The translations under genes were made by a program, and so were the position numbers. 58,056 nt of DNA from a virus: positions 1-58,056 of IMG/VR virus record IMGVR_UViG_3300021373_003097. One strand, given 5' to 3'. Numbering within the stretch: position 1 is the stretch's first letter; every line of letters begins with the position of its first letter. Shown one piece after another: positions 5,584 through 48,097 of this stretch. The notes beneath the pieces are model-generated. The model was given only the letters and a program-made list of their open reading frames with translations, was not told where the DNA came from and did not search any database.

Positions 5584-5596
5584 CATGGAGAATTGA

Positions 5597-5911: not shown

Positions 5912-5916
5912 AACGG

Positions 5917-6102: not shown

Positions 6103-6118
6103 TTAAGGAGAGTAACCA

Positions 6119-7533: not shown

Positions 7534-7561
7534 AACAAAAGAATTATTAGAGTTAGGAAAC

Positions 7562-7996: not shown

Positions 7997-8008
7997 CGGA
8001 TTAGATAG

Positions 8009-9373
8009 ATGACAGCAATCGCAACACCATCATTTAAAAAAGCAATCATCGAGAATCTGATAACTGATCTAGCAGATTCCGGAGAGACTTACTACTTGGC
8101 TATCGGTAAGTCTGATGCTTGGGATGAGAATGAAACTGTACCGACTACGGTTAATACTAGAGAAGAAGAGCGCAAGTTCAGGTCTAACATGCAGTCGATC
8201 AAGAAGATCTCTGACGGGACCTTCGCTGCAACAAGATACAACTGGTCTTCCGGTACAGTCTATAAAGCATACAGCGATGCAGTAACTCTAGCATCTCTCG
8301 GTGCATACTACGTATTCACTGAATCTCAAAGAGTCTATGTCTGCATGGAGCAGGGCAAAGATGATGCCGGTGTTACTCAGATCTCGTCTGTCAATCCAGA
8401 CACTGTAGGCACCGGTACAGATCCTGTAAGAGCCGCAGACAACTATGTATGGAAGTACCTCTTCTCTATCACTTCTGTAAACACCAACAAGTTCCTTTCG
8501 GCTAACTTCATTCCTGTGAGCTTGATTCTTACTGCCGGTAATCTTATTGAGACTGAGCAGCTGAATGTTCAAAACTCGGCTGCAGCAGGATCTATCATTG
8601 GATACCGAGTAGTTACACCGGGTACCGACTATCCAGATAGCTGCCAGCAAGTCTCTGTTGTAGGTAATGGCTCCGGAGCAGGGGTGACTATTAAGACTCT
8701 TAACGGCGCAGTGGTCAAGGCTACTATTGAAGACTCGACTGATGGCTCTCTCAAGATCGGCTCTGGGTATGACTTTGCTGATGTAGTTATCGGTGACTCC
8801 AACAATGGAGCCGCAGTCATCAGGCCAATCGTTTCTATTAAAGGTCTTGGTGCAGATCCAAGAGAGGATATTAATGCCAATCATATCATGTTCAACTCGC
8901 AGCCTTCAGGCAGCGAATCAGGAGACTTCCTGGTAGGTACAGGGGCTGACTTCCGCCAGGTTGGAATCTTAAGGAATCCAAAGAACTTCAATAATTCTGA
9001 CTTTACTGAAACGACTGGATCTACGTTGAGAAAGCTTCAGTTGAATCCTGCGTCTGTAACCGGAACGTTTCCTGTAGATGCAGTGATCAGAGGGCAGAGC
9101 TCAAGTGCAGCTGCTTATGTAGATAAGTATGATGCTGCAAATAACATCATTTATTTCCACCAGAATGAAGGTACTGGGTTTACTCAATTCTCTAACGGAG
9201 AGGCTATTGTAGACTCAGATAACTCAGCTTCTAACCAGGCAAACCTTTCAAGTGTGGATTCTGATGGTGAAGTCAATGCATTTAGCGGAGACGTTCTCTA
9301 CATTGAAAATAAGAGTCCTGTTTCTAGAGATGCGGCTCAGACAGAAGATATTAAGATAATCTTTAAGCTTTAA
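8009..9373 (+). CDS. 8: Baseplate wedge subunit gp8
   Basis: A 454-residue member of the T4 gp8 family, longer than T4 gp8 (334) as is common in marine relatives. In T4 gp8 dimers bind gp7 and gp10 in the wedge periphery. Diagnostic segments are YYLAIGKSDAWDENETVP (about 27-44; T4 has FITFGRSEPW), RVYVCMEQGKDDAGVTQ (about 110-126) and DNYVWKYLFSI (about 145-155; T4 has DGYVWEYLFEI). The C-terminal part is extra beta-rich sequence with Gly-Ser-Asp turns. It sits between fibre genes and the large DUF4815-type protein, matching marine T4-like order. Confidence 0.85.
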   Translation: MTAIATPSFKKAIIENLITDLADSGETYYLAIGKSDAWDENETVPTTVNTREEERKFRSNMQSIKKISDGTFAATRYNWSSGTVYKAYSDAVTLASLGAYYVFTESQRVYVCMEQGKDDAGVTQISSVNPDTVGTGTDPVRAADNYVWKYLFSITSVNTNKFLSANFIPVSLILTAGNLIETEQLNVQNSAAAGSIIGYRVVTPGTDYPDSCQQVSVVGNGSGAGVTIKTLNGAVVKATIEDSTDGSLKIGSGYDFADVVIGDSNNGAAVIRPIVSIKGLGADPREDINANHIMFNSQPSGSESGDFLVGTGADFRQVGILRNPKNFNNSDFTETTGSTLRKLQLNPASVTGTFPVDAVIRGQSSSAAAYVDKYDAANNIIYFHQNEGTGFTQFSNGEAIVDSDNSASNQANLSSVDSDGEVNAFSGDVLYIENKSPVSRDAAQTEDIKIIFKL

Positions 9374-9382
9374 GGTACTCAG

Positions 9383-12300
9383 ATGACTGACTTTACAAAC
9401 ACGACATTTCAAAACACTTATAAGGATGATTTTGTCGATTCTGATAACTATCACCGCATCTTATTCAATTCTGGTAGGACTCTTCAGGCGCGTGAACTTA
9501 CTCAGCTCCAGACAATCATTCAGACCGAAGTGTCCAGGTTCGGGGATCATGTATTTAAAGACGGCTCCTTAGTCATTCCTGGAGGCCTTTCCCTCGATAC
9601 AATTGAGTTTGTAAAGCTTGATGGTAACCCTGACATCTCTGCCTTTGCTGTAGGCGACGTCATCACTGAAGATGTCAGCGGCGTAAAGGCCAAGATCTTA
9701 CGAATCGAGCAGTACGTCAGCTCTTCTGAACCTGCAACCTTTTACATCACGTATACAGATGCAAACGGCCAGGTACCTACTACATCTCCTATCAGGTTCA
9801 CTCCATACAACTCCGGTACGGGTATCGGCGTACTCAGAAAGTCCGGAGCATCTGTAAATGTTCAGGTGACAAACACTACAGAAGATCCTGCTGTAGGAGC
9901 TGGAACGGCCGTATCGGTTGCAACAGGAAGCTTCTATGCTCTTAAGCACTTTGTCCAGTGCAATCCTCAGACAGTCATGGTTGCTAAGTACAGCGCAACT
10001 CCTACAGTCGATATCGGGTTCAAAGTCACTGAAAGCATAGTCACCGCAGAAGATGAGTCTGCACTCTACGATAATCAGAACGTTCTTCCTAATGAGACTG
10101 CACCAGGTGCTGACAGGTACAAGATCAATCTTGAACTCACTACATCTGATGCTATTGACTCAGATGAAAACTTTATCTACTTGAACCGATTAGTAGAAGG
10201 TGAGTTCTTAAAAGAGATCGACAGAAGCACATACAATATTATCGGAGAAGAGTCTGCACTTCGTACATTTGAAGAGTCCGGCGACTATATCGTTGAGAGC
10301 TTAGACTTAGACTTTACTCCTGATTCAGACGCAGGCTTAGTAGCTGAGCTTGGACCAGGCATTGCATACATCAAAGGTTATAGATTTAACCAGCAGTCGA
10401 CTCTTCCTATTAAAGTAAACAAGGCAAGAGACTTCCAAGAGATTGAGAACGATACTGTATCTGCGTTTTTTGGAAACTACCTGAACATCGATGGAACTAC
10501 TATCAAGGGAGTGCCGAACATCGATGTGTTTGAAGTTCAGACTCTTTATGATAACGTTAACTTAGGCGGCGCCAATATCGGTACTGCCAGGGTACGTCAG
10601 GTTGAGCAGAACGGTGCAGACTATAAGTACTACCTGTTTGATGTTAACATTAGTCCTGGATACAAGTTCACTGCAGCTAAGAGTATCGGAACTAGCTCTA
10701 CAAGCTACGGCAACATCATTACAGAGAACAATGCAGCTGTACTTAAAGAGGCTGATGAGAATAACCTGTTCTTTGATCTTCCTAGAATTCGCCCCAAGTC
10801 ATTTGACGATATTCAGTTTGTCGTCCAGCGTAGAATCTCTGGTCTGACAACCGACGGCAGTGGTATTGAAACTATCGATGTAGATGTTTCTGGATCTGAA
10901 GCATTCACTAACACTACTACCTGGATCGCAGCATTTGACTCTGATGGTGGGCACGTTGCACCTGTAATCACCCTTCAGCAGGTAACAAACGCAAATGACC
11001 GAGCACAGCTGGACTTTGGAGCTACATATGCCAACAAGAACTTTGAGGTTCTGGTTGCAGTTCAGAAGTCTTATACTCCGGCAAGTGCAGTTATCAGATC
11101 GAAGACTATCACAAACACTACAGTGACTACTACAATTGATTCTGATGGAAGCGGTATCCTCTATATTCCTCTGTCTAAAGCAGACATTTACAATGTAACT
11201 AGAGTCACTGACTCAGACTCAGATGGAGTAGACCTGTCCGGATTCTTTACACTAGATAATGGACAGAGAGATAACTTCTACGGTGAGGGTAGACTCATCC
11301 TCAACACTGGAGTTACAGCTCCATCCGGAAACGTATTCGTTAGATACGACTACTTTGCACATGGGACAGGCCACTTCTTTGGTCCTACATCCTACACTGG
11401 ATTGAACCTGGACAGTATTCCTACATACACCACAAAGCTCGGTGAAGAAGTTGAATTAAGAAACGTATTAGACTTTAGACCGAGAAAAGGTGACGGAGAC
11501 ACTGAGTACTCCACCGGCACCGCGATTGTCAATGAGATTCCTACAAATACTAGCCTGATCACTTCAGATATCGAGTACTATCTTCCTAGAAGAGACATCT
11601 TGGTTCTTACTGCAAACAATGAAGTCGAGTACATTGAAGGAACCAGCTCTTTTAATCCAGTGTACCCAACTACACCTAATGATGCAATGAAGATCTATGA
11701 GATTGATCTTGAAGCTTACACTGATGATGAAGACGATGTAGACTTCTCTTCCATCGGTAACATCAGGTACACTATGGCAGATATCGCTAGACTTGAAGAC
11801 AGGATTGAAAGGGTAGAAGAGACTACTACTCTCAGCCTTCTTGAGTTAAATGCAGCAAACATTGAAGTTCTCGATGACAGTGGGAACAACCGGTTTAAGA
11901 ACGGGTTCTTTGCTGATAACTTTGAGACTAATGATTTTGTAGATATCAGCACCGGCGAGTTCTTTGCTTCCTTTGATGAAGATCAGGATTTGATCCAGCC
12001 TCTGTTTACGAGTAAGAGTGCAAACCTCTTTGTAGACTCCGGAGCATCTTCTGGAGTGACTGTAGCCGGAGAGCTTGTCATGCTTTCCTATAACGACTCC
12101 GCAGTCATCTCTCAGCTGGTAGCATCTGAGACTGAAAACGTCAATCCATTCGCAATCATCTCTCATGTAGGTTCTATTGAGATGGTGCCTTCGGTTGACA
12201 ACTGGACTGAAGTCAATGAGGTCAGAAACGGCCGGTTGATCGTTCAGCCTAGAAGAGTAGCTCAAAGAGTTCAGTTAAGAAGAAGAGCAATTGCTAGTAT

Positions 12301-31903: not shown

Positions 31904-33829
31904 TTGGCTGATAACTATCCATTCGACTCAGATAACGTACCGTACAGCGCAGTCTTTAACCAAGACTATACTGCTGACAGCGCTATAGCTGTTTCTACAC
32001 TATTTTCTACGACTACACCAGTGTCCTTGATCACTATTATTGGTGGAGCAGGTGGTACTTCTGGCGGGGTTGGCGGTACAGGTGGGTCAGTTACAACCTT
32101 AGATACTACCTATAGTGCTTCTCGGGGTTCTTACTCTGGCGGAGATGGTGGAGCTGGTGGCGGTGCTCTTGGTAATGGAGCCGGAGGTGGTGGAGCTGCA
32201 GGATACTCTGGTGCAGGTGGAGATGCTGGATCCGCTGGAACAGGTGGAGCTGGAGGAGGCGGTGGTGCTTCTACTAATCAGCTGTTACTTGGCGGTGGCG
32301 GTGTAGGTCTATTCGGTGAAGGAACATCAGGTGCTGCTGGTACTGATTCTACTGCAGCGGGCGGTGGTTCTTCCTTTACTACGATTCATGGTGATCCATA
32401 CTTAGGTAACGTTACATTACTTCTAACTGGCGATAGCACGATAACCCCAGTTAACTTTGGAAGGTCAGACGGATTCTCTGCTACATATCATAACGCCTAC
32501 CCCGATTCAGCTGGTGCCTTTACAACTGGTAAGTATGGTAGCGCATTCTCTTTCAATGGTGAAGATCAATATATTTCTTTAACCGGTGGGGATTTGTCTG
32601 GCGGTGACTGGACCATTGAGATGTGGGTTAATTATGATAGCATGACTCAATTCTCAGGGCCAATTGCTACTGATATGGATAAGGTACTACCAGCGGGTAA
32701 TACAGCAGGGGAATTTGATTTCCATATTCGAACCACAACCGCGCCTCACCGTATGTCTTTTTTCGTTAGAAATGATGGCAGTTCCCCGACAACTTTTGAT
32801 ATTGAAAATGATAGCGTAGCAATTACTGCTGGAACCTGGCACCATGTCGCAGCTTCATTTGTATCCTCTACTAATACTATATATGTAGGTGTTGACGGTA
32901 CAGTGTCCTCGAGTACGAACGCTGCATTTGCAAGTATTTCATTAGGTGCTGAAGATGCGCTTCAGATTGGCAAAAATAGAACTAACAACCAATTTTTTAA
33001 TGGTCAGATCGATGATATACGGTTAACCAAAGGTGTAGCACGATATACCTCTAGCTATACGGTACCCGCAGCAGCGCATTCTTCAGCACCTGGGGCTAGT
33101 GGAACGGATGGGTTTATTGATAGTGATGGTGCGCTGCTTAATTTTTCTTCAGCCCCCACCGGCACAATCAATGTTATTGACTATTCTACTGCTCCTGTAA
33201 CCAGTGGATTGATCATACATCTTGATGCGGGAGTAACTTCATCATACCCTGGTTCTGGATCAACATGGTACGACATTACTGCAAACAACAATGATTTTAC
33301 TCTTACTAACAGTCCGACTTATTCAAGCGCCAACGGGGGCAAGTTTCAGTTTAATGGTACTAATCAGTATGCCACCGGAGGGCCAAACCTAAGTACGTCT
33401 AACTGTACAACTATTGCTATTCAAAGGTATGCTACTAATAACAATAGCGCTAGAGGTAGAGTTACTGCCGGTAATGCTAACAACTGGCTCTTGGGCATAT
33501 GGGGTAATAATACATCAGTTTACTACGCTAATGGATGGCTTACTCCTACCAATACCGGAACTGATACTGACTGGCACATTCATGCTGGTACTGAAAACTA
33601 CAGTGGCGATTCTAGAGTTTTGTATGATAACAATGCTGTGGTTTCCGGGCAGACTGCTAGCGGTGGTTCTCAGGGACCAAATGGGTTTTCCATAGGTAGA
33701 TGGGGGGCTGGAAGTAGTGAGTATTCAGATTGTGAAGTAGCAGTGCTTCTAGTTTATAACAGGGTGCTTAGTACAACCGAGTTAACTACTATATTCGATT
33801 TCTATAAAAGTAGATTTGGAATTTCTTAA
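31904..33829 (+). CDS. Glycine-rich adhesin with two concanavalin/LamG-like domains
   Basis: The start is TTG at 31904, preceded by GGAGAAG. After a short head (FDSDNVPYSAVFNQDYTADS), residues about 47-155 are a polyglycine region (GGAGGTSGG, GGAGGGALGNGAGGGGAAG) like the glycine-rich adhesin domain of phage gp38-type receptor binders. Residues about 170-395 read as a laminin-G/concanavalin-like lectin domain (KYGSAFSFNGEDQYISL, WTIEMWVNYDS, GTWHHVAASFVSSTNTIYVG, GQIDDIRLTKGVARY). A second similar domain follows (GLIIHLDAG, WYDITANNNDFTLTNSP, GGKFQFNGTNQYATG, about 430-641). The combination strongly suggests glycan binding at the tail tip. Ligand unknown. Confidence 0.8.
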   Translation: MADNYPFDSDNVPYSAVFNQDYTADSAIAVSTLFSTTTPVSLITIIGGAGGTSGGVGGTGGSVTTLDTTYSASRGSYSGGDGGAGGGALGNGAGGGGAAGYSGAGGDAGSAGTGGAGGGGGASTNQLLLGGGGVGLFGEGTSGAAGTDSTAAGGGSSFTTIHGDPYLGNVTLLLTGDSTITPVNFGRSDGFSATYHNAYPDSAGAFTTGKYGSAFSFNGEDQYISLTGGDLSGGDWTIEMWVNYDSMTQFSGPIATDMDKVLPAGNTAGEFDFHIRTTTAPHRMSFFVRNDGSSPTTFDIENDSVAITAGTWHHVAASFVSSTNTIYVGVDGTVSSSTNAAFASISLGAEDALQIGKNRTNNQFFNGQIDDIRLTKGVARYTSSYTVPAAAHSSAPGASGTDGFIDSDGALLNFSSAPTGTINVIDYSTAPVTSGLIIHLDAGVTSSYPGSGSTWYDITANNNDFTLTNSPTYSSANGGKFQFNGTNQYATGGPNLSTSNCTTIAIQRYATNNNSARGRVTAGNANNWLLGIWGNNTSVYYANGWLTPTNTGTDTDWHIHAGTENYSGDSRVLYDNNAVVSGQTASGGSQGPNGFSIGRWGAGSSEYSDCEVAVLLVYNRVLSTTELTTIFDFYKSRFGIS

Positions 33830-33843
33830 GGGATAGATAACTA

Positions 33844-33939
33844 ATGTCTGATAAGGGTTTATATGGTGGAGGTGGCGGTTCAGCCGCATCTAGTGCTTCC
33901 TTAGTAGTAAAGGTGGTCACGGCCAGCGTGGTGCTGTAA
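33844..33939 (+). pseudogene. N-terminal fragment of a glycine-rich adhesin, frame-broken
   Basis: The ATG at 33844 (AAGGGA upstream) opens a 31-codon frame, MSDKGLYGGGGGSAASSAS then LVVKVV..., stopping at 33937-33939. In the -1 frame the sequence from about 33900 to 34000 reads KGGHGQRGAVRIIYPTPSGQ. This is the typical end of a polyglycine adhesin (compare GANGAHGAVRIIWGT near the end of the next gene). So this looks like a head plus tail of a collapsed Gly-rich adhesin, out of frame by one base near GTAAAGG (33907-33913). It leads into the next gene. No canonical slippery heptamer is visible. Confidence 0.55.
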
Positions 33940-33998
33940 GAATCATTTATCCTACTCCAAGTGGACAGAGTGACACTACTACTATTCTTGATAGAGGA

Positions 33999-34865
33999 TT
34001 GCCTGCTCTCGCTGAATCTGTTTCTGTTAATCCAGGTGGACACCTTTACACAACTACAGGTACCCATACATTTACTGTTCCTACTGGCGTTACGTCTATC
34101 ACTGCTGTTGCTGTTGGTGCAGGTGGAGGAGGAGGAGGTTCTACGGGATCTACTGGTAGTACTCGAGCTGCTGGCGGCGGCGGAGCGCTTTATTATGCTA
34201 ATGCGATATCTGTTACCCCAGGAGAATCTTTAACAGTAGTCGTCGGCACTAGAGGTTCTGGTGGTGGAACTGGAGGTAGTGGGAGTAACGGAGGAAACTC
34301 GAGTATTGCAAGAGGAGGTACTACTCTTCTTTTAGCTGAAGGTGGTGATGGCGGCACTACATCAGCAGTTAATGGTGGTTTAACGTCGAATTGTATTGGT
34401 GATGGTGGCGGTAATGGTGGAGGCGGTAGTATTTCGACCAGCGCCGGTACCGGAGGAGGCGGAGCTGGAGGTTATAGCGGATCTGGTGGTGCGGCGAACA
34501 GCGCAGGATCTGGCGGCGGCGGTGGAGGCGGTAGTCGTAGGCTTTCTGACCAAAGAACTGGTGGTGGTGGCGGAGTTGGCGTCTACGGTGAAGGCGCTAG
34601 TGGCGGCGCCTCGTCGACGAGTAGCGTCAGCGGCCGGGGAGGTTCAGACGGAAATGGTGGTGGGGTCTCCGCCGCCGGCGCTGGTGGAGCCTATGGTGGC
34701 GGCGGTGGATCACGATTTGATGATGGTTCTGCAGGCGGTGGGGCCAATGGAGCTCATGGCGCCGTAAGAATTATTTGGGGTACTGAAATTACTAGATCAT
34801 TCCCTACAACCAATGTCGCTGTTAGTACAACATACACAAACGGCGAATCCGAGTCGTTAAATTAA
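33999..34865 (+). CDS. Glycine-rich adhesin (polyglycine receptor-binding type)
   Basis: The frame is open from 33894. The TTG at 33999 is a poor start, so the protein may be made by frameshift from 33844. The core begins LYTTTGTHTFTVPTGVTSIT (about 15-34), the usual opening of glycine-rich phage adhesin domains, then AVGAGGGGGG and long Gly/Ser blocks (GGGGAGGYSGSGG, GGGGGGGSRRLSDQRTGGGG) to about 245. It ends GAHGAVRIIWGTEITRSFP. In known phages polyglycine helices present loops that bind outer-membrane receptors. Composition is extreme (mostly Gly, Ser, Ala, Thr), but strong codon diversity argues for real coding. One of three adjacent genes with this domain. Confidence 0.7.
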   Translation: MPALAESVSVNPGGHLYTTTGTHTFTVPTGVTSITAVAVGAGGGGGGSTGSTGSTRAAGGGGALYYANAISVTPGESLTVVVGTRGSGGGTGGSGSNGGNSSIARGGTTLLLAEGGDGGTTSAVNGGLTSNCIGDGGGNGGGGSISTSAGTGGGGAGGYSGSGGAANSAGSGGGGGGGSRRLSDQRTGGGGGVGVYGEGASGGASSTSSVSGRGGSDGNGGGVSAAGAGGAYGGGGGSRFDDGSAGGGANGAHGAVRIIWGTEITRSFPTTNVAVSTTYTNGESESLN

Positions 34866-34876
34866 GGAATAAGTAA

Positions 34877-35974
34877 TTGGCTTTAAAGTTTCCAGATTCA
34901 GCAGATTCAGCCGACTTAGCGGCAGCAGGCTACAGCCAGGTTATTATTCTGGGTGGTGGGGACTCGACTGCTACAACCTGGACTATTCCTGAAGGCGTAG
35001 ACTCGTTTAGCATTATGGCTATTGGAGCAGGTGGAGCTGCAGGTTACTCTAATTCTACTAGTGCAGGAGGCGGTGGAGGAGGCGGAGGTCTTGCCTACCT
35101 GAACAATATCGCAGTCACACAGGGTGATCAAGAAATCATCTCTATTACTGTAGGTGGTGGGCAGCTAGGTGTGGGAGCCAATTCTGATGGCGGTGATGCT
35201 ACTGACCTAACTGTTACTATGAATCTCACTACTGCCAATCCAGCATTAAACTTATCCGGATATAACATAAATCCATATGGCCAGCAAGAGTTTTTAGATG
35301 CAGATTCAGATGCAAAGGCAATCATGTATATTGGAGCAGCTAGACTCGCTCCTTCGGCATCTAATCTTTTTGATTCATATCCAACTCTCAACCTGATATT
35401 CGATGATAGTGCTTCGTCTACAGCAGATCAGTTTGTATATGTTCAGCCAACTGGATCCTTTGGCACTGCATATCCATTCTCCGTGGGAGTAGATGGAGCG
35501 CAGACGCTATTTGATATTGCAAATGAAGGTGCATTCTCAAGAATTCAATCTTTAGCTGAACCAGATCCAAATACAACAAACAGGTGGGGATATAACCCAG
35601 CGACTTTTAACTACGCTTCTGATCCTAGTACGTACCTTTTCAAGAGAACAGACACCTTGGCTCATCTAGGGACTGACAGTGACCTGTATATTCCTCAAAG
35701 CATTCTTGATGCTGGATTTGCAACTTTAGATGATCAGCCAACAACAGTTTTAGGTACAATCGATTCATTTGATGTTGGAGGAGGAGCCTTTACTCTGTTC
35801 AGCATTTCTAGTGCAATCCAGTCTATTCAGATTGGAAATTTACCAGGACAATCTCCTTATGTTGATAGCGGTGGCACAATCATCATCAGTGCTGTACAAG
35901 ATCCATCGGATTATCAAGGATACGGCCCACCTGACTTAAGACAGATTCTAATTGAAAAAAATCTTACTCCGTAG
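34877..35974 (+). CDS. Glycine-rich domain tail protein (365 aa)
   Basis: TTG start at 34877 with AAGGA upstream. The head has PDSADSADLAAAGYS. Residues about 35-112 repeat the adhesin opening (TTWTIPEGVDSFSIMAIGAGG, GGGGGGGGLAYLNNIAVTQG, ISITVGGGQLG) but with a short glycine block. The remaining 250 residues are a non-repetitive beta-rich domain (YPTLNLIFDDSASSTADQF, YVQPTGSFGTAYPF, GTIDSFDVGGGAFTLFSIS) that I do not recognise. It may carry a shortened adhesin domain that has replaced binding loops with a different C-terminal domain. A late promoter directly follows its stop. Confidence 0.65.
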   Translation: MALKFPDSADSADLAAAGYSQVIILGGGDSTATTWTIPEGVDSFSIMAIGAGGAAGYSNSTSAGGGGGGGGLAYLNNIAVTQGDQEIISITVGGGQLGVGANSDGGDATDLTVTMNLTTANPALNLSGYNINPYGQQEFLDADSDAKAIMYIGAARLAPSASNLFDSYPTLNLIFDDSASSTADQFVYVQPTGSFGTAYPFSVGVDGAQTLFDIANEGAFSRIQSLAEPDPNTTNRWGYNPATFNYASDPSTYLFKRTDTLAHLGTDSDLYIPQSILDAGFATLDDQPTTVLGTIDSFDVGGGAFTLFSISSAIQSIQIGNLPGQSPYVDSGGTIIISAVQDPSDYQGYGPPDLRQILIEKNLTP

Positions 35975-38428: not shown

Positions 38429-39228
38429 TGTTTGGACAGCACTTCTACCATGAAAAGATTCGAAAGTGTGTAGCCACGTTTGGCACCATGTTCAATAACC
38501 TCTACGTTGTTAGAAAAGACGCATCTGGTTCAGTTATCAACCAGATGAAAGTGCCTCTTGCATATGCGCCTAAGCAGAAGTTTCTTGACAGGATCAACCA
38601 GTCACCTGATCTAGACGATGAAAGATTCGTAGCAATAAAGCTGCCAAGGATGTCTTTTGAGATCTCTTCTATGTACTATGATCCTGCTAGACAGCTACCA
38701 AAGCTAAACAATTTTACCAAGCTAGTCACAAGCGATAATACAAAAAGAACAAAGTTCTTTACCTCAGTTCCGTATATTATCAACTTCCAATTGAATATTC
38801 TTGCTAAGACAAATGAAGATGCTGTTCAAATCGTAGAGCAGATCTTACCTTTCTTCAATCCAGCATACACAGTTACTATGAAGCAGTTCAGTGATTATCC
38901 GGATATTACTGAGGATATACCTATCTCACTGATCGGTATCTCGTACTCCGACGACTTTGACGGAGCGTTGGAAAGCAGAAGAACTATTATCTACTCACTT
39001 GATTTCGAGATGAAGACTTCATTCTATGGACCGATCTCTGACTCCTCTATCATCAGAAAGTCTATCGTTGACTTTAGAGACCCTAGTATATCATATAGCC
39101 TTTCAGATTCAGATGATAACTTTATTCAAAGAATGACAGTTAATCTCAATCCTCTGGATGCAAATCCAGAAGACAGTTACGGTTACACAACATCATTCTT
39201 ATATCCTGGAGAAGGTGACAGTTTATGA
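38428..39228 (+). CDS. 15: Tail sheath stabiliser/terminator gp15
   Basis: A 266-residue protein matching T4 gp15 (272), the hexameric ring that caps the tail and receives the neck. Similar features are the start MFGQHFYHEKIRKCVATFGT, VPLAYAPKQKFLDRINQ (about 42-58), the LPRMSFEISSMYYD segment and IVEQILPFFNPAYTVTM (about 134-150; T4 has IVEQILPYFQPHF). Translation is coupled to gp14 and to gp16 (ATGA overlap). Confidence 0.92.
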   Translation: MFGQHFYHEKIRKCVATFGTMFNNLYVVRKDASGSVINQMKVPLAYAPKQKFLDRINQSPDLDDERFVAIKLPRMSFEISSMYYDPARQLPKLNNFTKLVTSDNTKRTKFFTSVPYIINFQLNILAKTNEDAVQIVEQILPFFNPAYTVTMKQFSDYPDITEDIPISLIGISYSDDFDGALESRRTIIYSLDFEMKTSFYGPISDSSIIRKSIVDFRDPSISYSLSDSDDNFIQRMTVNLNPLDANPEDSYGYTTSFLYPGEGDSL

Positions 39229-39605
39229 GCAACATAGTACCTAAGAAAGATATGCCGGAAAGCGTGCATTCTAGTTATGATGAAGACTTAGATCTCATTC
39301 GCTCTACTCTTCGAAGTCTTTTGATCCAAGGTGAAGAAGGCCTTCAACTTGCACAGGCCGTTGCTGACGAGATGCAGCATCCTCGGGCCATTGAAGTCTT
39401 GAGTGGTATGATTAAGCAGCAGTCAGACAATGCTCACGCTCTATTAAAGATGCATAAGAATAATCAAGAAATCAACGTCACTCAGGCTAAAGGAAAGCCT
39501 GAAGAAAACAAGGCTCTTACACAGAATGTATTTGTAGGCTCAACAGCAGAACTCCAGAAGATGTTGAGAGGTGAACCGGAGATAATCAACGGCGAAGAGT
39601 TATAA
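39225..39605 (+). CDS. 16: Small terminase subunit gp16
   Basis: A 126-residue protein that starts inside the gp15 stop. It is largely helical (DLDLIRSTLRSLLIQGEEGL, AVADEMQHPRAIEVLSGMIK), as in T4-like gp16, which forms a ring that regulates gp17 during packaging. The tail (AELQKMLRGEPEIING) is typical of marine relatives. The TAA stop lies inside a late promoter. In T4 gp16 is followed directly by gp17; here 6.9 kb and five genes intervene. Confidence 0.88.
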   Translation: MSNIVPKKDMPESVHSSYDEDLDLIRSTLRSLLIQGEEGLQLAQAVADEMQHPRAIEVLSGMIKQQSDNAHALLKMHKNNQEINVTQAKGKPEENKALTQNVFVGSTAELQKMLRGEPEIINGEEL

Positions 39606-39608
39606 ATA
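39601..39608 (+). promoter_or_regulatory. T4-type late promoter (TATAAATA) before the adhesin island
   Basis: Perfect octamer overlapping the gp16 stop codon (39603-39605), 33 bp before the ATG at 39642. It is the only clear late promoter for the island and possibly for gp17. Confidence 0.75.
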
Positions 39609-39641: not shown

Positions 39642-41906
39642 ATGGCAATAGTTCTACGCTCTTTAAAAGGATCTGCTCTAACATTTAGTCAGTTAGACAA
39701 CAACTTCTCTGAACTTGATTCGAGAATCTTAGATTCTAGCGAAGTGTCCGATATCATTGACTCTGACTACATTCAATCAAGACAGCTTCTCACTACTCCA
39801 GCTGAAGGTCTAGATTCAGACGCAGTCATTGATCTGGTAGATTCAGATTATATTGAAGCTAGATTTGGAGACACCTTCGATTCTGACTATGTTAAGGCAA
39901 GAATGCTTTCATTGGATGGGGGTGTCTTAAATCAGAAGTACGGAGAGTACATTCATGATCCTAATCCGATAGTCTTCAGCGTAGTAGTTTCATCTAAGAC
40001 TTCAGCTCACAGATATCAAGGTACAGGCTCATCTAACGGATATGTGATTGAAGGTACTGAAGGACCGTTCATTGAACTCGTACCAGGTAACACTTATCAG
40101 TTCGATCAGTCAGATGCCTCCAACAGCTTCCATCCAATTAAGTTCTATCTTGAGCCAGACCAGACTACACTGTATGAGACTGGAGTAACATATGCAGGTA
40201 CTCCTGGTCAAGCCGGTGGGAGAACTCAGATCGTAGTAAGTGACAGCACTCCAGGTACTCTGTATTACATGTGTGAGAATCATAGCTACATGGGTAACGC
40301 TGTACATACAATGAATAACGTTGCAGGATTTGATGGAGCTTTCTCATCCTTAACAGGAACTCCTACTACACTTTCTGGTTATGGTATCACGGATGCTCAA
40401 GCAACCTTAGTATCAGGTACAAACATTAAGACGATCAATGGGTCATCACTGGTCGGATCTGGTGATTTAATCGTAAGCGGAGGTACTGCATACGGAGATG
40501 CAAACGTAGATTCTAACCTGAATACTAATACTGCAACTTCTGGTCAGGTTCTTTCTTGGACCGGCACTGACTACGATTGGGTCGCTCAGACGGGCGGATC
40601 AGGTTCTTCTGTTACAGTAAGTCACATTGTAGACATGAGTCTCCTTGACTCTGTAGGCAGAGCAGGTACACTTCTCTCTGCAGCTCTCGGTGTAGGTGAT
40701 GGTGTCTACTATGACTCCGACGCTGGAGTATGGACAGGGGCCTATAAAGATTCAGCTCATGTAGCTTCTCATGTTATTGTAAGTTACAATACATCTGCCA
40801 GTGAATTTAAGATCGCTCAGACAGGTATCTTTACACTCGACTCTGATGGTGGAGCTCCTACTCTTAAAAAGAACGCGTACTTCTTCTTAGCTGACTCTGC
40901 AGGACTGACTCCAGTAACAACCTCCCCTGACTCTGGAATCTACCAGTCGCTGTTCTATACACTTGATTCTAATATCATTGATGTAAACGTTAGTGAAGCT
41001 CAGAAGTCAGTGATAGCGACAGGTGGCGGAGGCGGAGGCGGTACTTCATATACAGATGCAAATTTAGATTCGCATTTAAATACAAACACTGCCACTTCAA
41101 ACCAAATACTTGCTTGGAACGGTAGTGATTATGATTGGCGTGCTCAGAGAAGTGTCTACAACTCTATAGAGAGCCTAGACTCCCCTAGTGGATCTCAAAC
41201 CGGAATACATGCAGTAAACACTACTAGCGGCACAATAACGTTCGTTGGTACTGGCGGAATTTCAGTAGATGTTAGTGGAGGCTCTGGGTCTTCAGTAAGC
41301 GACAGCGCATATATTGTAATTGACGGAACAGGTGTAGGCGGCGGAGGATCCGGCGACATCACTGCTGTAAACATCACAGCTGGCACGGGTCTGACTGGAA
41401 CAGTGAGCACAGCATCTGGCGACCACACTCAAACGCTAGCTCTTGACTCAGCGGGTATTGGAGCAGGCACCTACGGCAGCACGAGCAACACGACTAAGAT
41501 CGACACTATCACCGTCGACGCTTATGGTCGAGTAACGAATGTAGCGACTGGAGGTATCAGCGCAACTGCATCTGCAGGAGGATCAAGCACTCAAGTTCAA
41601 TACAATAGCGGTGGAGCTTTAGCGGGTGATGCCGGAATGGTTTATAATGCTACTACTAATACTCTTACTGTAGAGAACCTTGAAGTTACTGGATCTGGAT
41701 CTACAAATACAATTTCTTCTTCTGGAGACGTTGTCTTAGATGCAGGAAACAGAGTTAGAGTAGATGGCACGGTACCATTTAGACTACCTAATGTTACGAC
41801 TACTCAGCAGAACGCGATTGGAGCTGCAGCGGGTGATCTGGTGTTCAACACTTCAACTGGTAAAGTAACAGTCTATACCGGTTCAGCTTGGGTGGCACTG
41901 CACTAA
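39642..41906 (+). CDS. Tail fibre with cupredoxin-like (type-1 copper) domain
   Basis: A 754-residue fibre. The N-terminus has FSQLDNNFSELDSRILDSSE (about 15-34), a motif shared with fibres at 3802 and 7562, then DSDYI/V repeats. Residues about 108-225 look like a cupredoxin: PFIELVPGNTYQFDQSD, SNSFHPIKF with H164, and YYMCENHSYMGN with C211, H214, M217. C-x2-H-x2-M is the amicyanin spacing. Residues about 325-455 repeat a domain of the 3802 fibre (LLDSVGRAGTLL, GVGDGVYYDSDAGVWTGAY). The end (VRVDGTVPFRLPNV, VYTGSAWVALH) is a common fibre terminus. Copper binding is a prediction; a purely structural cupredoxin fold is also possible. Confidence 0.78.
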   Translation: MAIVLRSLKGSALTFSQLDNNFSELDSRILDSSEVSDIIDSDYIQSRQLLTTPAEGLDSDAVIDLVDSDYIEARFGDTFDSDYVKARMLSLDGGVLNQKYGEYIHDPNPIVFSVVVSSKTSAHRYQGTGSSNGYVIEGTEGPFIELVPGNTYQFDQSDASNSFHPIKFYLEPDQTTLYETGVTYAGTPGQAGGRTQIVVSDSTPGTLYYMCENHSYMGNAVHTMNNVAGFDGAFSSLTGTPTTLSGYGITDAQATLVSGTNIKTINGSSLVGSGDLIVSGGTAYGDANVDSNLNTNTATSGQVLSWTGTDYDWVAQTGGSGSSVTVSHIVDMSLLDSVGRAGTLLSAALGVGDGVYYDSDAGVWTGAYKDSAHVASHVIVSYNTSASEFKIAQTGIFTLDSDGGAPTLKKNAYFFLADSAGLTPVTTSPDSGIYQSLFYTLDSNIIDVNVSEAQKSVIATGGGGGGGTSYTDANLDSHLNTNTATSNQILAWNGSDYDWRAQRSVYNSIESLDSPSGSQTGIHAVNTTSGTITFVGTGGISVDVSGGSGSSVSDSAYIVIDGTGVGGGGSGDITAVNITAGTGLTGTVSTASGDHTQTLALDSAGIGAGTYGSTSNTTKIDTITVDAYGRVTNVATGGISATASAGGSSTQVQYNSGGALAGDAGMVYNATTNTLTVENLEVTGSGSTNTISSSGDVVLDAGNRVRVDGTVPFRLPNVTTTQQNAIGAAAGDLVFNTSTGKVTVYTGSAWVALH

Positions 41907-43474
41907 TGGAAAAAGAATACGTAGTTACACTTAAGAATGCAGAAGACGCAGATCAGTTCTATTCAGAGATGACAGCTTCTTCTGGAGACGGAGTTGTTCC
42001 TAATAGAACAGTTGATGTTGTAAACGCCAGACCAGGTAGTCTTCGTAATACTGAATACTCTCTAACAGAAGAAGAAGCCGCAGCTCTTAAAGAAGATGAT
42101 AGAGTATTAGACGTAGAGATTCCAGTGCACTTAATGGAAAATGTTAGTTCTGGCCCTGCACTAACTCAGACCGGAGATTTTGATAAAACGACTTCTAGTA
42201 CAGGTGATAATATAAACTGGGGATTGATTAGAAGCAACAATACAGCTAATAACTATGGCCTTGGATCAGCTACATCTGAAAATTATAATTATTTCTTAGA
42301 TGGTACCGGAGTAGACATTGTCGTTAAAGATTCTGGGATTGAAGCCAATCACCCAGAATGGGAAGATGCCAACGGCACAAGTAGACTTCAGCAGATAAAC
42401 TGGTACACTGAGGCTGGAGTTTCAGGTACACAGAGCTCTTCATTTTACACAGATAACAGCGGCCACGGTACGCATGTTGCTGGCATTGCCGCCGGTAAAA
42501 ATTATGGCTGGGCAAAAGGTGCTAGAATATATGCCATGAAAATTGAAGGCACCGGCGCGATAGCAGAATCTGGAGTAACATATTCTGCGTATGATCTAAT
42601 TAGGCTTTGGCACAATAATAAGCCAGTAGATCCAGCCACTGGATATAAAAGACCAACAATTGTAAACTCTAGTTGGGGCTGGTACAACACTTTTACAGTG
42701 GTTCCAACTAATTATGGCTTAAACTATAGAGGAGTTTCATATTTAGGGGCTTCTATAGATACTGCAGCTGAACGTTTAGCTAAGGGGTGGAGAGGCGATC
42801 AGACCAATTATGAGCAACCATTTCGCAACACTGCTATAGACGCAGAAGTAGAGGATATGATTAATGCCGGCGTGATTTTTGTTCATGCTGCCGGAAACTA
42901 TGGATTTAAAATTGATTTACCAGGTGGTCCTGATTATAATAATTATTCATACAACCTCAATAATAATAATGGAAGATACAACCAAGGCATGAGCCCAACA
43001 GGAGCGTCAAACAGAAATAACGGCTTTGGAGATTCAATCGAAGTCGGAGCAATTGATAGGGCTGCATACTCTTCTAGCTTAGATCAAAGAACTGTCTATA
43101 GTAATACTGGACCTGGAGTAGATATCTATGCTCCAGGGGAAAATATAATGAGTGCATGGAGAACTGCTACTGGAGGACAATATGGAAGTGGATCTACATA
43201 TTTTTGGAATTCAAGCTATAGACAAAAAAATATAGGCGGAACTTCGATGGCATGCCCTCAAGTAGCAGGACTTGCAGCATTGGTGGCCCAGCTCAATCCG
43301 CACTTTACTTCAGCGCAGATGAAAGATTATATTAAAACAAAGTGCTCAACTACTGGATACATATATGATGCTGGAGGAAATAATAATTTTTCAGATGGTC
43401 GCGCTTTATATGGTGGCGGAGACTTATTCTTAAAAAATCCATTTAACAGTCAGTACTCATACCAGGTAGGATAA
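41906..43474 (+). CDS. Subtilisin-like serine protease (peptidase S8)
   Basis: Start chosen at the ATG overlapping the preceding TAA. The 522-residue protein has a short inhibitor-I9-like start (EYVVTLKNAEDADQFYSEM), then an S8 catalytic core with all four key residues: D142 in VVKDSGIEANHPEW, H187 in NSGHGTHVAGIAAG, oxyanion N331 in FVHAAGNYG and S447 in GGTSMACPQVAGLAAL. No signal peptide or transmembrane segment is seen, so the enzyme probably reaches the outside as a virion protein. It lies between fibre and collagen-like genes, suggesting a role in processing fibres or digesting a host surface protein. Family assignment is certain; substrate is not. Confidence 0.93.
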   Translation: MEKEYVVTLKNAEDADQFYSEMTASSGDGVVPNRTVDVVNARPGSLRNTEYSLTEEEAAALKEDDRVLDVEIPVHLMENVSSGPALTQTGDFDKTTSSTGDNINWGLIRSNNTANNYGLGSATSENYNYFLDGTGVDIVVKDSGIEANHPEWEDANGTSRLQQINWYTEAGVSGTQSSSFYTDNSGHGTHVAGIAAGKNYGWAKGARIYAMKIEGTGAIAESGVTYSAYDLIRLWHNNKPVDPATGYKRPTIVNSSWGWYNTFTVVPTNYGLNYRGVSYLGASIDTAAERLAKGWRGDQTNYEQPFRNTAIDAEVEDMINAGVIFVHAAGNYGFKIDLPGGPDYNNYSYNLNNNNGRYNQGMSPTGASNRNNGFGDSIEVGAIDRAAYSSSLDQRTVYSNTGPGVDIYAPGENIMSAWRTATGGQYGSGSTYFWNSSYRQKNIGGTSMACPQVAGLAALVAQLNPHFTSAQMKDYIKTKCSTTGYIYDAGGNNNFSDGRALYGGGDLFLKNPFNSQYSYQVG

Positions 43475-43479
43475 AAAAA

Positions 43480-43893
43480 ATGGCAAGAGTAAATTCAAAC
43501 TTAAACACTGGTACAACTGGAGACACTGGGCCTCAAGGACCTCAGGGGATTCAGGGCACGGCTGGAAATGATGGAACTAATGGCGCCGACGGAGGACGAA
43601 ATATTCCTCAGGCTACTAGCACTACCGTAACTACAGCAGATGCAGGTGATCACCTCTTAGTCTCTTCTGATGTCACCATCAATACATCTACTGGATTTTC
43701 AGCAGGAGACGTTGTGACTATCGTCAACAATTCCGACGTCACTATTGATATCATACACTCTGGTCTCACAGTTTACTTAGCTGGTACAGCACAAGCCATT
43801 GCATCCCCAAGAACATTGGCGGCTAGAGGAGTGGCTTCAGCCCTGTGCACAGCTAGTAATACATACTACATAAGCGGAGCTGGACTTACATAA
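43480..43893 (+). CDS. Collagen-like repeat protein
   Basis: A 137-residue protein starting 5 bp after the protease. Residues about 10-40 are Gly-X-Y triplets (TGDTGPQGPQGIQGTAGNDG, TNGADGG) of the kind that form phage collagen-like trimers. The rest is a beta-rich domain (DHLLVSSDVTINTST, VVTIVNNSDVTIDI, ASNTYYISGAGLT) probably capping or trimerising the stalk. Its last base is the first base of the next ATG. Likely a short trimeric adhesin stalk in the same set as the protease and propeller. Confidence 0.75.
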   Translation: MARVNSNLNTGTTGDTGPQGPQGIQGTAGNDGTNGADGGRNIPQATSTTVTTADAGDHLLVSSDVTINTSTGFSAGDVVTIVNNSDVTIDIIHSGLTVYLAGTAQAIASPRTLAARGVASALCTASNTYYISGAGLT

Positions 43894-46235
43894 TGGCTTT
43901 AGTACAAGCATTAATGATGGCATATAGAAAAGAAGTTGCGTTTCCAGTTGAGAGCGGAATGGCTTCTGGAGATATTCCGATTGAACAATGGTTTGACCAT
44001 CCTAGTGAAGAGTCTGGTAATTTTGAAGGGTGGGCCGTAGCTGTTTCTGGAGATGGACTAACAGCCGTTATCGGTGCGCCTGAAGACAGTAGCCAGGTAA
44101 CTGATGGTGGAAGAGTCACTATTTGGGAATACCAATCTGGAACTTGGACATATGTAAGAGCAATTGGTCAAGATACTGCTGATAGGTCAACAGATGATAA
44201 ACTTGGTTACTCTGTAGATATTTCCTATGATGGTTCGGTGATTGTAGTTGGCGCTGAGAACTCTAGGCACGGCGGCACTACCGGCACTAGAACTGGAGTT
44301 GCTTATGTTTTTGAAAGACCATCAGGTGGTTGGTCTACACTAACAGCCAGCACTGCGGCTGGAGCCAAGCTTAGACCTACAACATCAAATATTATTATGA
44401 ACTTTGGTCTTTCAGTGGCAGTTTCAGGAGATGGAAACACTGTTGTGGTCGGTGCACCAGACGATAGTAATACGACAGTCTCAGGTTACTACGGATTGGT
44501 CTATCTTTTTGAAAAACCTTCTGGAGGATGGGTGGACACATATGAAGACTATGTATTATATACTAACTTTAACACTAGTTCAAATGATGATTTAGGCACA
44601 GCTGTAGATATTTCTCATGATGGCTCGGTAGTAGTTGCTGGTGCACCAGAGTATGATGTAAGCAGCGGTGTTAATAACGGAGCTGTTGGAGTCTTTGAAA
44701 AAGGAAGTGGGTGGAGTACCGGCAGTGGTAATCATGTTGACACTTTGTTTTCTAAAGATCTTAACTCTTCGCAGAATAGTGAAGAGTTTGGATCTTCAGT
44801 TGCAATTTCAGCTGATGCTAATGTGATTGTAGTCGGCGCACCGCGGGATCCGACTAATTCTGGACAAACCATATCCGGAAGTGCGTATGTTCACCTTAGA
44901 AAAACTACCGGTGATCTTTTATGGAATACATTCGGTGACGCTCAGTTAGCCCAAAGCTTTACAACTTCTAATGGTCACCAATTAGGAATATCGGTAGATG
45001 TATCTAATACTGGAAAGGTCATAGTTGTTGGAGCTAAAGGTTTTGATGATACAAGTCAAACGGATGTTGGAGCAGTCTTTGTCTACACTGAGCCAACAGG
45101 AGGTTGGACTTCCGGAATCGATAATGGATCAGGTGATCCACCTCTCACAGAAGATTATGTGATTACTCCTTCTAGTGGTTGGTCCAGTCAATCATATGGA
45201 AACTCTGTATCAATCTCAGATGATGCAACAAAAATGATAACAGCTGCGTATGAAGCAGATCATCCGTATTATCTTAGTAATATGACAACAGCTGAATATG
45301 ATACTATTGGAGCTATTTATGGGTATACGCATTCACCACTCTTGACCAACTGGGGTTCTTCTATAACTGGGATAACTGGTGGGACCGCTGGGGGAGCTGA
45401 AATAATAAACCTTGAAAGAGATTCAGTATGTGCAGTTCTAGATGCAAGTGGAAACCGTGTAGATGGTTACCTCTGGCACGCTTATCGTACAGGAGGAGGG
45501 GCTACTGGTGTTGACTATATAGATATTGAACTTTTAAAAGGTGATGCGAATACCGGGCAACTTGAATCAGTGTATAAGCACCGGTGCTATGAAGAAGATT
45601 ATGCTCGTTGGAAACCTAATCATGTATGTGATACTGGAACCAGTTTAGTTTTAACTACTACAGAAAATCAGTATGATAATGCTAGAGTCTTAGTCGTAAA
45701 AAAGATAACGGGTGAAACTTTCAGACTAAACACAACAAATACAAATTTCCCTGCAATGGCCAATAGCTTACAGTACAGCGGAAATAACTTTTGGGGTGAT
45801 CTATTTAGTTGTGTGTATGATCCTGTCTATGATGACGTGATCTTAGCGTATGCAGATCCTTTAACTAATTTTGCAAATAGCACTTATCATAATAAGTTTG
45901 TCAGGTTTACTAACTATAATAGTACTACTACTACTTTTGGTGAAACATGTAATGTTAGTGTTGGAAGTTCTGGATTTACTAGAGCAGTTGATGCTAATCA
46001 GGCAGAAGGCTATATAGATCGTGATCCTGACACTGGTTATTTTGTTTATAGTGGATTAAATCAAAAGTGTAGAAGATATCAGCGCACAGGGACTAATACT
46101 TTTGTTGCTATTGACGAGTTTACCAGAGCCTCTAGCAATCTATGGCAACTTATATATCAGAATGATGGAACACTGTACTTTAGAGGTGAAAACTCCAGTG
46201 GAAGTTATAATCAAGAAACACTCTATAGACATTAA
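43893..46235 (+). CDS. FG-GAP seven-bladed (integrin-alpha-like) propeller adhesin
   Basis: A 780-residue protein with seven consecutive FG-GAP-type repeats starting near residues 45, 104, 171, 234, 299, 364 and 435 (spacing 59-71), each with an xGxSVxIS-D-G/A-xxVVVGAP core (FGLSVAVSGDGNTVVVGAPD, FGSSVAISADANVIVVGAPR). Several blades end in VYLFEKPSGGW-like strands. Seven such units make an integrin-alpha-type propeller. Residues about 490-780 are a second, distinct beta domain with several cysteines (VYKHRCYEEDY, LNQKCRRYQR). DxxxDG-like loops may bind calcium. It is translationally coupled to the collagen-like gene. Presumably a ligand-binding virion head; target unknown. Confidence 0.8.
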   Translation: MALVQALMMAYRKEVAFPVESGMASGDIPIEQWFDHPSEESGNFEGWAVAVSGDGLTAVIGAPEDSSQVTDGGRVTIWEYQSGTWTYVRAIGQDTADRSTDDKLGYSVDISYDGSVIVVGAENSRHGGTTGTRTGVAYVFERPSGGWSTLTASTAAGAKLRPTTSNIIMNFGLSVAVSGDGNTVVVGAPDDSNTTVSGYYGLVYLFEKPSGGWVDTYEDYVLYTNFNTSSNDDLGTAVDISHDGSVVVAGAPEYDVSSGVNNGAVGVFEKGSGWSTGSGNHVDTLFSKDLNSSQNSEEFGSSVAISADANVIVVGAPRDPTNSGQTISGSAYVHLRKTTGDLLWNTFGDAQLAQSFTTSNGHQLGISVDVSNTGKVIVVGAKGFDDTSQTDVGAVFVYTEPTGGWTSGIDNGSGDPPLTEDYVITPSSGWSSQSYGNSVSISDDATKMITAAYEADHPYYLSNMTTAEYDTIGAIYGYTHSPLLTNWGSSITGITGGTAGGAEIINLERDSVCAVLDASGNRVDGYLWHAYRTGGGATGVDYIDIELLKGDANTGQLESVYKHRCYEEDYARWKPNHVCDTGTSLVLTTTENQYDNARVLVVKKITGETFRLNTTNTNFPAMANSLQYSGNNFWGDLFSCVYDPVYDDVILAYADPLTNFANSTYHNKFVRFTNYNSTTTTFGETCNVSVGSSGFTRAVDANQAEGYIDRDPDTGYFVYSGLNQKCRRYQRTGTNTFVAIDEFTRASSNLWQLIYQNDGTLYFRGENSSGSYNQETLYRH

Positions 46236-46255
46236 TAATATGAAAGTGAATAGAT

Positions 46256-46495
46256 ATGATAATGACAGAATTGACAAAGGGGATATTCAAACTCCTTAAA
46301 AGACTCATTGGTGAGTCAAGCATTGCATTAGCAATCATTTATACTATCGGGCATATCTTTATTGCCACGATCTGCAACTGGTTAATCACCGGTGCAGCTA
46401 TGGAGTTAGCGGCTATAGATGCTATTGTAGAACCCATCATTAACGGGATCTGGTTCTACGTACTCCATAAACTAGCAAAGAGATTTATTAAGTGA
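46256..46495 (+). CDS. Small membrane protein (DUF2061-like, two helices)
   Basis: A 79-residue protein with two hydrophobic helices (about 22-44, SSIALAIIYTIGHIFIATIC, and about 60-75, VEPIINGIWFYVLHKLA) and basic ends (KGIFKLLKRLIGES, KLAKRFIK). The shape and text resemble DUF2061 membrane proteins. Its stop overlaps the GTG start of gp17 (GTGA). It could be a holin-like or superinfection-related protein, or a membrane anchor, but none of these is shown. The only membrane protein recognised in the window. Confidence 0.65.
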   Translation: MIMTELTKGIFKLLKRLIGESSIALAIIYTIGHIFIATICNWLITGAAMELAAIDAIVEPIINGIWFYVLHKLAKRFIK

Positions 46496-48078
46496 ACGAA
46501 ACATATCTTGGTAATGCCCAAGTAAAGAAAGATGGCGTAGAGCAAGGATGGACTAAACAGGACATCGAAGAGTACCAGCGCTGTATGAAAGATCCAGTGT
46601 ACTTTGCTGAAACCTACGGCAAAGTGATTAATCTAGATAAAGGCTTAGTTCCTTTTAAGTTATATCCTTATCAGAAGGAGATGTTTAATCATTTTAACGA
46701 TAATAGATTTTCCATTGTATTGGCGTGTCGTCAGTCTGGTAAGTCTATTAGTTCGTGTATGTACATCCTCTGGTACGCCCTATTTCATCCAGATCAGACG
46801 ATTGCTGTACTAGCTAACAAAGGTGCTACCGCAAGAGAAATGCTAGCACGTATTACTTTGGCTCTAGAAAATACACCGTTCTTTTTACAACCTGGTACCA
46901 AGGCTCTAAATAAAGGATCGATCGAGTTTAGTAACAACTCTCGTATTATTGCAGCAGCTACATCTGGTTCTTCTATTCGTGGTCTTGCAGTAAATCTATT
47001 GTTTCTGGACGAGTTTGCATTTGTAGAAGACGCTGCAACATTCTACACATCTACATATCCTGTTATCTCATCTGGTAAAACATCTAGAGTTATTATTACA
47101 TCTACCGCTAATGGTATTGGTAATACATTTCACAAAATTTACGAAGGCTCAATACAAGAAGTAAATGAGTTTAAACCATTCCGTGTAGACTGGTGGGACG
47201 TACCAGGAAGAGATGAAGAGTGGAAACGCCAAACTATTGCCAATACCTCAGAGCTTCAGTTCCAGCAGGAGTTCGGTAACACGTTCTTTGGAACAGGCAA
47301 TACTCTTATCTCTGCTGATGCATTGATGAATATGAAAGCAATAAATCCTATTGCTAATTTTGACAATGTAAAAGTCTATGAAGAACCAAAAGCAAACCAT
47401 GATTATATTATGTCAGTAGATGTTGCTAAAGGCCGCGGTCAAGACTATTCTACATTTAATATTATTGATATTTCTAGTAGACCATTTAAGCAGGTCGCAT
47501 GCTATAGAAGTAATATAATTTCTCCTATTCTTTTTCCGGATATTATTCATAAATGGGCAAAGAAATATAATGAAGCATATGTTATTATTGAATCAAATGA
47601 TGCAGGTTCTGTAGTTGCTAATGGTCTTTACTATGATATTGAATATGAAAATGTACATGTAGAGTCTATGATTAAAGCAAACGCTATTGGTGTTACAATG
47701 AATCGAAAAGTAAAGCGTATTGGTTGTTCTAATCTCAAAGACTTGATTGAAGAAAACCGGCTGCATATTGTTGACTTAGATACAATTAGTGAGTGTTCTA
47801 CTTTTGAAGCAAGACGTGATTCTTTTGAAGCATCCGATGGTAACCATGATGACTTAGTAATGAACTTAGTTCTGTTTGCATGGTATGTCGGAAGTCAATC
47901 TTTTTTGAATAACACTGACGTCAATTTAAAGCAAATGTTATATGAAGAAAAGATGAAGCAGATTGAAGATGAAGTGGTTCCGTTTGGCTTTGTTGATAAC
48001 GGCCAGGAAGAACAGAATGAAACAGAAGTTGTCGGTGGTCAGGTCTGGAAAGTTTCAGAACGAACAGAATTGTTCTAA
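46492..48078 (+). CDS. 17: Large terminase subunit gp17 (ATPase-nuclease)
   Basis: A 528-residue DNA-packaging motor that pumps the genome through the portal and cuts it. Start is GTG at 46492, overlapping the upstream stop. Walker A ACRQSGKS (78-85), Walker B LLFLDEF (169-175) with the catalytic Glu, coupling TSTAN (203-207), and the RNase-H-like nuclease with D310 (SVDVAKGRGQDYS), E367 (VIIESNDAG) and a C-terminal acidic site in SDGNHDDLVM are all present. Slightly shorter than T4 gp17 (610). The C-terminal half (47340-47960) is visibly more AT-rich than its first half. Confidence 0.95.
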   Translation: MNETYLGNAQVKKDGVEQGWTKQDIEEYQRCMKDPVYFAETYGKVINLDKGLVPFKLYPYQKEMFNHFNDNRFSIVLACRQSGKSISSCMYILWYALFHPDQTIAVLANKGATAREMLARITLALENTPFFLQPGTKALNKGSIEFSNNSRIIAAATSGSSIRGLAVNLLFLDEFAFVEDAATFYTSTYPVISSGKTSRVIITSTANGIGNTFHKIYEGSIQEVNEFKPFRVDWWDVPGRDEEWKRQTIANTSELQFQQEFGNTFFGTGNTLISADALMNMKAINPIANFDNVKVYEEPKANHDYIMSVDVAKGRGQDYSTFNIIDISSRPFKQVACYRSNIISPILFPDIIHKWAKKYNEAYVIIESNDAGSVVANGLYYDIEYENVHVESMIKANAIGVTMNRKVKRIGCSNLKDLIEENRLHIVDLDTISECSTFEARRDSFEASDGNHDDLVMNLVLFAWYVGSQSFLNNTDVNLKQMLYEEKMKQIEDEVVPFGFVDNGQEEQNETEVVGGQVWKVSERTELF

Positions 48079-48089
48079 AACAAAATATT

Positions 48090-48097
48090 TATAAATA
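48090..48097 (+). promoter_or_regulatory. T4-type late promoter (TATAAATA) before gp18
   Basis: Perfect octamer in the 91-bp gap between gp17 and gp18, 73 bp before the ATG. The long leader is AT-rich and ends in AAGAGGA before the start. Confidence 0.75.

Follow-up and report, generated by a model that had tools for sequence, protein, structure and literature searches.

The DNA analyzed here, referred to as the window, is the 58,056-base virus record of a T4-like marine phage. Its terminase large subunit, gp17, has its nearest annotated match in Phage C48C1 (Kyanoviridae; 70% identity), with cyanophages next closest (~46% identity). The window reads gp13, gp14, gp15, gp16, island, small membrane gene, gp17, and gp18, with the island spanning positions 39642 to 46235 and encoding a tail fibre, a subtilase, a collagen-like protein, and an FG-GAP propeller (Table 1). 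The original prediction, made from the sequence alone, was of a four-gene adhesin/enzyme island splitting gp16 from gp17; every ORF was recovered where it had been placed, and the fibre, protease, and propeller domain types agree with the predicted content. Of the 1 to 5 bp couplings described there, the first and third joins were measured as overlaps of 1 nt, and at the second join the genes are 5 nt apart.

Table 1. Genes and features of the gp16-gp17 interval (window coordinates)
Feature	Position	Strand	Basis
gp16 terminase small subunit, shortened, ending QKMLRGEPEIINGEEL*	39225..39605	+	PHROG 445 3.5e-23; tail comparison
T4-type late promoter motif TATAAATA	39601..39608	+	41 nt 5′ of fibre start
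Tail-fibre gene, 754 aa	39642..41906	+	PHROG 30742 1.7e-39
Cupredoxin-like domain, His-Cys-His-Met ligand set	39954..40337	+	21-sequence alignment; fold and PDB matches
Subtilase (S8), 522 aa from ATG	41906..43474	+	Pfam PF00082 2e-34; 44-sequence alignment; PDB sequence matches
Short collagen-like protein, 137 aa, putative propeller stalk	43480..43893	+	Pfam collagen 2e-4 (sub-cut-off); PHROG tail-fibre families
FG-GAP beta-propeller protein, 780 aa	43893..46235	+	Pfam FG-GAP_2 1.3e-32; weak model; L083 DNA identity
Insertion scar, stranded ancestral gp16 frame tail (...RYDNDRIDKGDIQTP*)	46236..46299	+	Comparison with relatives' gp16 tails
Small membrane protein, DUF2061-like, backbone gene	46256..46495	+	Pfam DUF2061 5e-4 (sub-cut-off); kept in 38/38 relatives
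gp17 terminase large subunit	46492..48078	+	Pfam Terminase_6N 3.6e-18, 6C 5.6e-17

Exact copies of TATAAATA occur 11 times on the + strand of the window and once on the − strand, and the + strand copies mostly lie 32 to 45 nt 5′ of a gene. The copy preceding the fibre is in line with the one late promoter predicted ahead of the island. The sole exact − strand match of the window belongs to a pair of sites at 48086 to 48097, 5′ of gp18, where two exact copies overlap on opposite strands. Codon usage gave a divided answer: the island genes are indeed richer in A/T-ending codons than the core genes, as had been proposed (GC3 of 0.25 to 0.34; mean of the core genes, 0.41), but a similarly low value was obtained for gp17 (0.29). 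Because of this low value, a foreign origin proven by composition alone was dropped. Another adhesin-like cluster with low GC3 (~0.30) lies just 5′ of gp13 at 31904 to 35974, where a laminin-G-like protein (9.8e-22) is followed by two glycine-rich proteins.

Informative close relatives were defined as IMG/VR contigs with a gp17 78 to 93% identical to that of the window and with gp16 also present (n = 38, representing 22 lineages at 95% gp17 DNA identity). The island was absent between gp16 and gp17 in all of them (38/38); the four genes, far from being standard at this position, were thus missing throughout the comparison that the original prediction had suggested. The spacing between the terminase genes in these relatives, by an alignment-based measure, was 219 to 731 nt, with the small membrane gene inside. 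Since this gene is kept in 38/38 close relatives, it belongs to the backbone, and its presence in island-free genomes ruled out the island membership first assigned to it. Among 30 more distant relatives, gp16 adjoins gp17 without the small membrane gene.

The same comparison located the point of disruption. In relatives, gp16 reads ...LQKMLRGE-EKVIEHDNDR... and runs into the small membrane gene with an overlap of 23 to 44 nt. The gp16 of the window diverges straight after LQKMLRGE and meets an early stop (PEIINGEEL*), while the ancestral tail, RYDNDRIDKGDIQTP*, recurs 3′ of the propeller, where it shares bases, in another frame, with the beginning of the small membrane gene. This partial double use accounts for the survival of the remnant. 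Judged by sequence comparison, absence from relatives together with the scar shows the island to be an insertion. The small membrane gene itself, which overlaps gp16 in relatives, overlaps gp17 in the window.

Both island junctions were searched in IMG/VR, and neither was found in any other contig; the joins are therefore without confirmation from a second genome. This result, along with the fact that the parts have their closest copies in differing phage backgrounds, speaks for the island being a chimera in which assembly joined two different phages. We regard this as extremely unlikely, as the joins lie at gene boundaries (the left one has a consensus late promoter motif, and at the right one the gene start is intact), the gp16 tail of relatives is precisely interrupted, and the interval between gp16 and gp17 is known as a natural hotspot.

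The gp16-gp17 region is described as a hotspot by Sullivan 2010 (PMC3037559), with credit to Millard 2009, and in cyanomyoviruses the stretch from g15 to g18 is described as holding 4 to 14 inserted genes (PMC2984593, citing Millard 2009). Thus, the split between gp16 and gp17 is real in this phage but does not constitute a new phenomenon. The island resembles this hyperplastic region of marine T4-like cyanophages in its position, in the variability of insertions, and in its absence from some relatives. The published cargo of the region, however, consists mostly of hypothetical and metabolic genes rather than a fibre, subtilase, collagen-like protein, and propeller. Individual phages illustrate the range: the interval holds petE, PTOX, gnd, and zwf in Syn19, hypothetical and structural genes in S-H38, and no inserted genes in C48C1. 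Adhesin-like cargo, as in the island, is found in Synechococcus phage Bellamy (a tail fibre and a DUF192 protein) and in Melnitz (an F5/8 type C domain protein). The Bellamy fibre has the same cupredoxin domain as the island fibre (56% identity), but unlike the island, neither interval contains a subtilase or an FG-GAP propeller. The place is therefore already known and the cargo is new; insertion at a known hotspot is real and well supported, and the set of attachment genes is unusual. A terminase hotspot best known for metabolic and hypothetical genes can evidently hold a whole set of surface proteins.

Endonuclease genes flank the carbon cassette of cyanophages, whereas no endonuclease-like ORF was seen in the island; no Pfam or PHROG endonuclease family was matched by any of the four ORFs filling the interval. 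A flanking endonuclease is not a universal feature of the gp16-gp17 hotspot. The Syn19 gene content lends some weight to reading the island genes as cargo that acts on infected-cell physiology, like cyanophage metabolic genes. This reading is very unlikely to be correct, given that the island domains are of fibre, protease, and propeller types rather than metabolic enzymes and that the promoter motif is of the late structural type.

Within the fibre, the cupredoxin domain spans residues ~105 to 225. An alignment of 21 divergent homologues showed His64, Cys111, and His114 to be invariant and Met117 to be ~90% conserved. The AlphaFold2 model of the domain (pLDDT ~84.5) matched rusticyanin (E = 7e-4), plastocyanin, and copper nitrite reductase; the whole fibre, searched by sequence against the PDB, gave no match. 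The conserved His-Cys-His-Met ligands and the fold match uphold the copper-site fibre as a prediction, and we infer from alignment and model that the fibre carries a copper site. Because the cupredoxin domain is widespread among marine phage fibres, the predicted site is a family trait and not a peculiarity of the island. At its N terminus, the fibre has the motif LDNNFSEL in common with the other fibre ORFs of the window at 3802 and 7562, which match a baseplate-fibre connector family. At the opposite end, residues 567 to 753 are common to contigs L086 and L091 (76 to 78% identity).

The second gene was predicted to encode a subtilisin-like protease, and the Pfam subtilase match with an intact triad and oxyanion Asn supports that assignment. 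Across a 44-sequence alignment, Asp142 (44/44), His190 (42/44), Asn331 (44/44), and Ser447 (44/44) were conserved; in these alignments, the subtilase catalytic residues and the fibre copper-ligand residues are both seen to be intact. All 44 subtilases have an N-terminal prodomain-like region with an I9-like pattern recognized by eye (there was no Pfam I9 match). Most family members lack a hydrophobic signal peptide, and none is apparent in the protein of the window.

The subtilase family comprised 83 loci, or 46 clusters at 90% identity. In 46/46 clusters, the subtilase is immediately preceded on its own strand by a fibre-like or tail-gene ORF, usually at a distance of no more than 35 nt; end motifs and glycine content were part of the basis for calling these ORFs fibre-like. 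A cupredoxin motif is present in the upstream ORF of at least 8 clusters. The pairing extends beyond T4-like phages: contig L089 (1289 to 10051), with matches to T7-like families for its portal, scaffold, and capsid genes, has a related fibre and subtilase, with 45% identity to the fibre of the window over residues 285 to 753 and 66% identity for the subtilase. In the cyanophages Sf-FR1, S-CREM1, S-H38, and P-SSM2, a subtilase likewise lies directly 3′ of a tail-pin or other tail-cluster gene and has the prodomain-like region and triad seen in the window, although these genes sit in other structural clusters and their products are 26 to 36% identical to the island protein.

The strict fibre-subtilase order, which spans 46 lineages and takes in a T7-like contig, points to a family of phage proteases that has received little study and would act in either host-surface digestion or fibre maturation, and we consider it the part of the island most worth following. 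The S-CREM2 virion proteome paper makes no mention of a peptidase, and in literature lying outside most subscription journals we found no earlier description of a phage subtilase with a tail fibre, of cupredoxin fibres, or of FG-GAP phage adhesins. We tentatively suggest, as a rather doubtful proposal, that a cassette of a fibre and a zymogen subtilase is common to several families of marine phages, in which a virion-borne protease delivered by interchangeable fibres would be activated outside the producing cell and would clear host protein layers at adsorption. If so, the window would show this cassette stacked against a propeller adhesin with a mobility of its own.

Fibre maturation has a modest chance of being right. 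Here, the subtilase would be a processing factor that trims or matures the upstream fibre and may not remain in the virion, rather than an enzyme that digests surfaces. The strict gene order in 46 clusters fits this role, as do the lack of a signal peptide, the conserved prodomain-like region, and the joint conservation of fibre C terminus and protease among near relatives (76 to 78% and 64 to 70% amino acid identity, respectively). On the other hand, no cleavage site was identified, long C-terminal extensions with a possible role as attachment domains are present in several subtilase homologues, and the C termini of the upstream fibres vary widely among clusters.

The last two island genes encode the collagen-like protein and the propeller. 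The former scored 21.4 bits against the Pfam collagen model over residues 11 to 38, below the cut-off of 27.2. The latter contains six FG-GAP_2 stretches, in keeping with the predicted integrin-type propeller, and the best PDB match of its AlphaFold2 model was integrin alpha-5. The model is weak (pLDDT 45, with an unresolved C-terminal part), and the match therefore supports a propeller but not integrin-like ligand binding. Residues ~450 to 780 have no assigned fold, and a sequence search of the propeller against the PDB gave no match.

Propeller homologues were found in five other contigs, L081 to L085 (76 to 91% amino acid identity). They represent the same protein as that of the window (84 to 85% amino acid and 89% DNA identity where full length), but there the gene belongs to the baseplate cluster, where it follows the gene for a short coiled-coil fibre of 249 aa. 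The propeller DNA is 89% identical to L083 over 43940 to 46244, a segment that begins ~47 nt into the ORF and extends 9 nt beyond its stop, and 95% identical to L085 over 557 bp; the backbone stretches of the same contigs are mostly 65 to 67% identical to the window. By these DNA identities, the propeller gene is a recent transfer between phages and between slots. No recent bacterial donor was found, as a peptide-pattern search for bacterial relatives of the propeller in 84,980 genomes had no match; a profile search of viral contigs for further propellers returned the known copies only. The first ~15 codons (43893 to 43940) differ from L083, with the remainder 85% identical, as if the N terminus were matched to a different stalk partner. 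No relation was detectable between the collagen-like protein and the 249-aa partner in L083; the stalk-propeller pairing is therefore proposed from gene arrangement alone.

The original prediction regarded the four genes as a single functional surface module, a view that was not supported. The propeller occurs without the subtilase at the baseplate slot in five contigs, other phages, including a T7-like one, have the fibre tip and subtilase with no propeller, and an FG-GAP neighbour was detected in just 1/46 subtilase clusters. Three of the four domain types are combined in just one other contig, L134, a different T4-like contig in which a cupredoxin fibre, an FG-GAP protein (here the ORF directly upstream of the subtilase), and a subtilase are consecutive at 6886 to 11305. 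This independent combination of 3/4 island parts means that the parts have been combined at least twice, and functional coupling beyond pairs is therefore possible. The description of the domains as eukaryote-like also proved too strong, as all four domain types are present in other phages.

L134, the single late promoter motif, and the 1- to 5-nt junctions are the observations most compatible with one integrated adsorption machine, in which fibre, protease, stalk, and propeller would assemble and act together. We consider such a machine unlikely: the propeller stands apart with a different partner at the baseplate slot, the fibre tip and subtilase are found in other phages without it, and detected FG-GAP neighbours are limited to a single subtilase cluster. 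Genomic comparison shows independent occurrence for the fibre-tip/subtilase pair and both independent occurrence and transfer for the propeller, and the island resembles a pair of cassettes, one stacked on the other, more than a single module of four genes.

Taken together, the island probably consists of accessory, late-expressed virion genes inserted at the gp16-gp17 hotspot and built from two separately travelling cassettes. The first would comprise the cupredoxin-bearing tail fibre followed by the zymogen-type subtilase, and the second the short collagen-like stalk followed by the FG-GAP propeller. Late transcription from 39601 would make the island products together with the tail. The fibre N terminus may dock on the tail or baseplate, with the subtilase carried with or beside the fibre, and the propeller could be mounted on the collagen-like stalk and provide an exchangeable, alternative head for receptor binding. 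The subtilase would mature by prodomain cleavage and then either cut host-surface proteins or trim the fibre; that its activation in seawater depends on calcium is a guess from general knowledge of subtilases. Virion location, the substrates of the protease, and copper binding are presumed properties of the island products.

Under this two-cassette interpretation, host-attachment parts appear to have been caught in motion, with one adhesin gene at 89 to 95% DNA identity occupying two genome slots in backbones that are mostly ~67% identical. The swapped parts probably decide which cells these phages infect. As described in PMC10579305, the tail-fibre modules that distantly related Alteromonas phages have in common are likewise host-recognition genes exchanged across phage families, although the module presented there pairs a fibre with a chaperone, whereas the island pairs a fibre with a protease.

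The slot occupied in the five propeller contigs corresponds to 3802 to 7996 of the window, within the baseplate cluster. This second adhesin slot holds a 593-aa fibre, a 104-aa ORF, a 128-aa and 340-aa pair, and a 144-aa short fibre. The members of the pair overlap by 1 nt, and the 340-aa protein is propeller-like by eye (with no Pfam match). Contig L079 presents a third propeller slot in this phage group: at 122 to 2576, upstream of gp13, an FG-GAP protein lies behind a 248-aa fibre-like ORF with a 1-nt gap.
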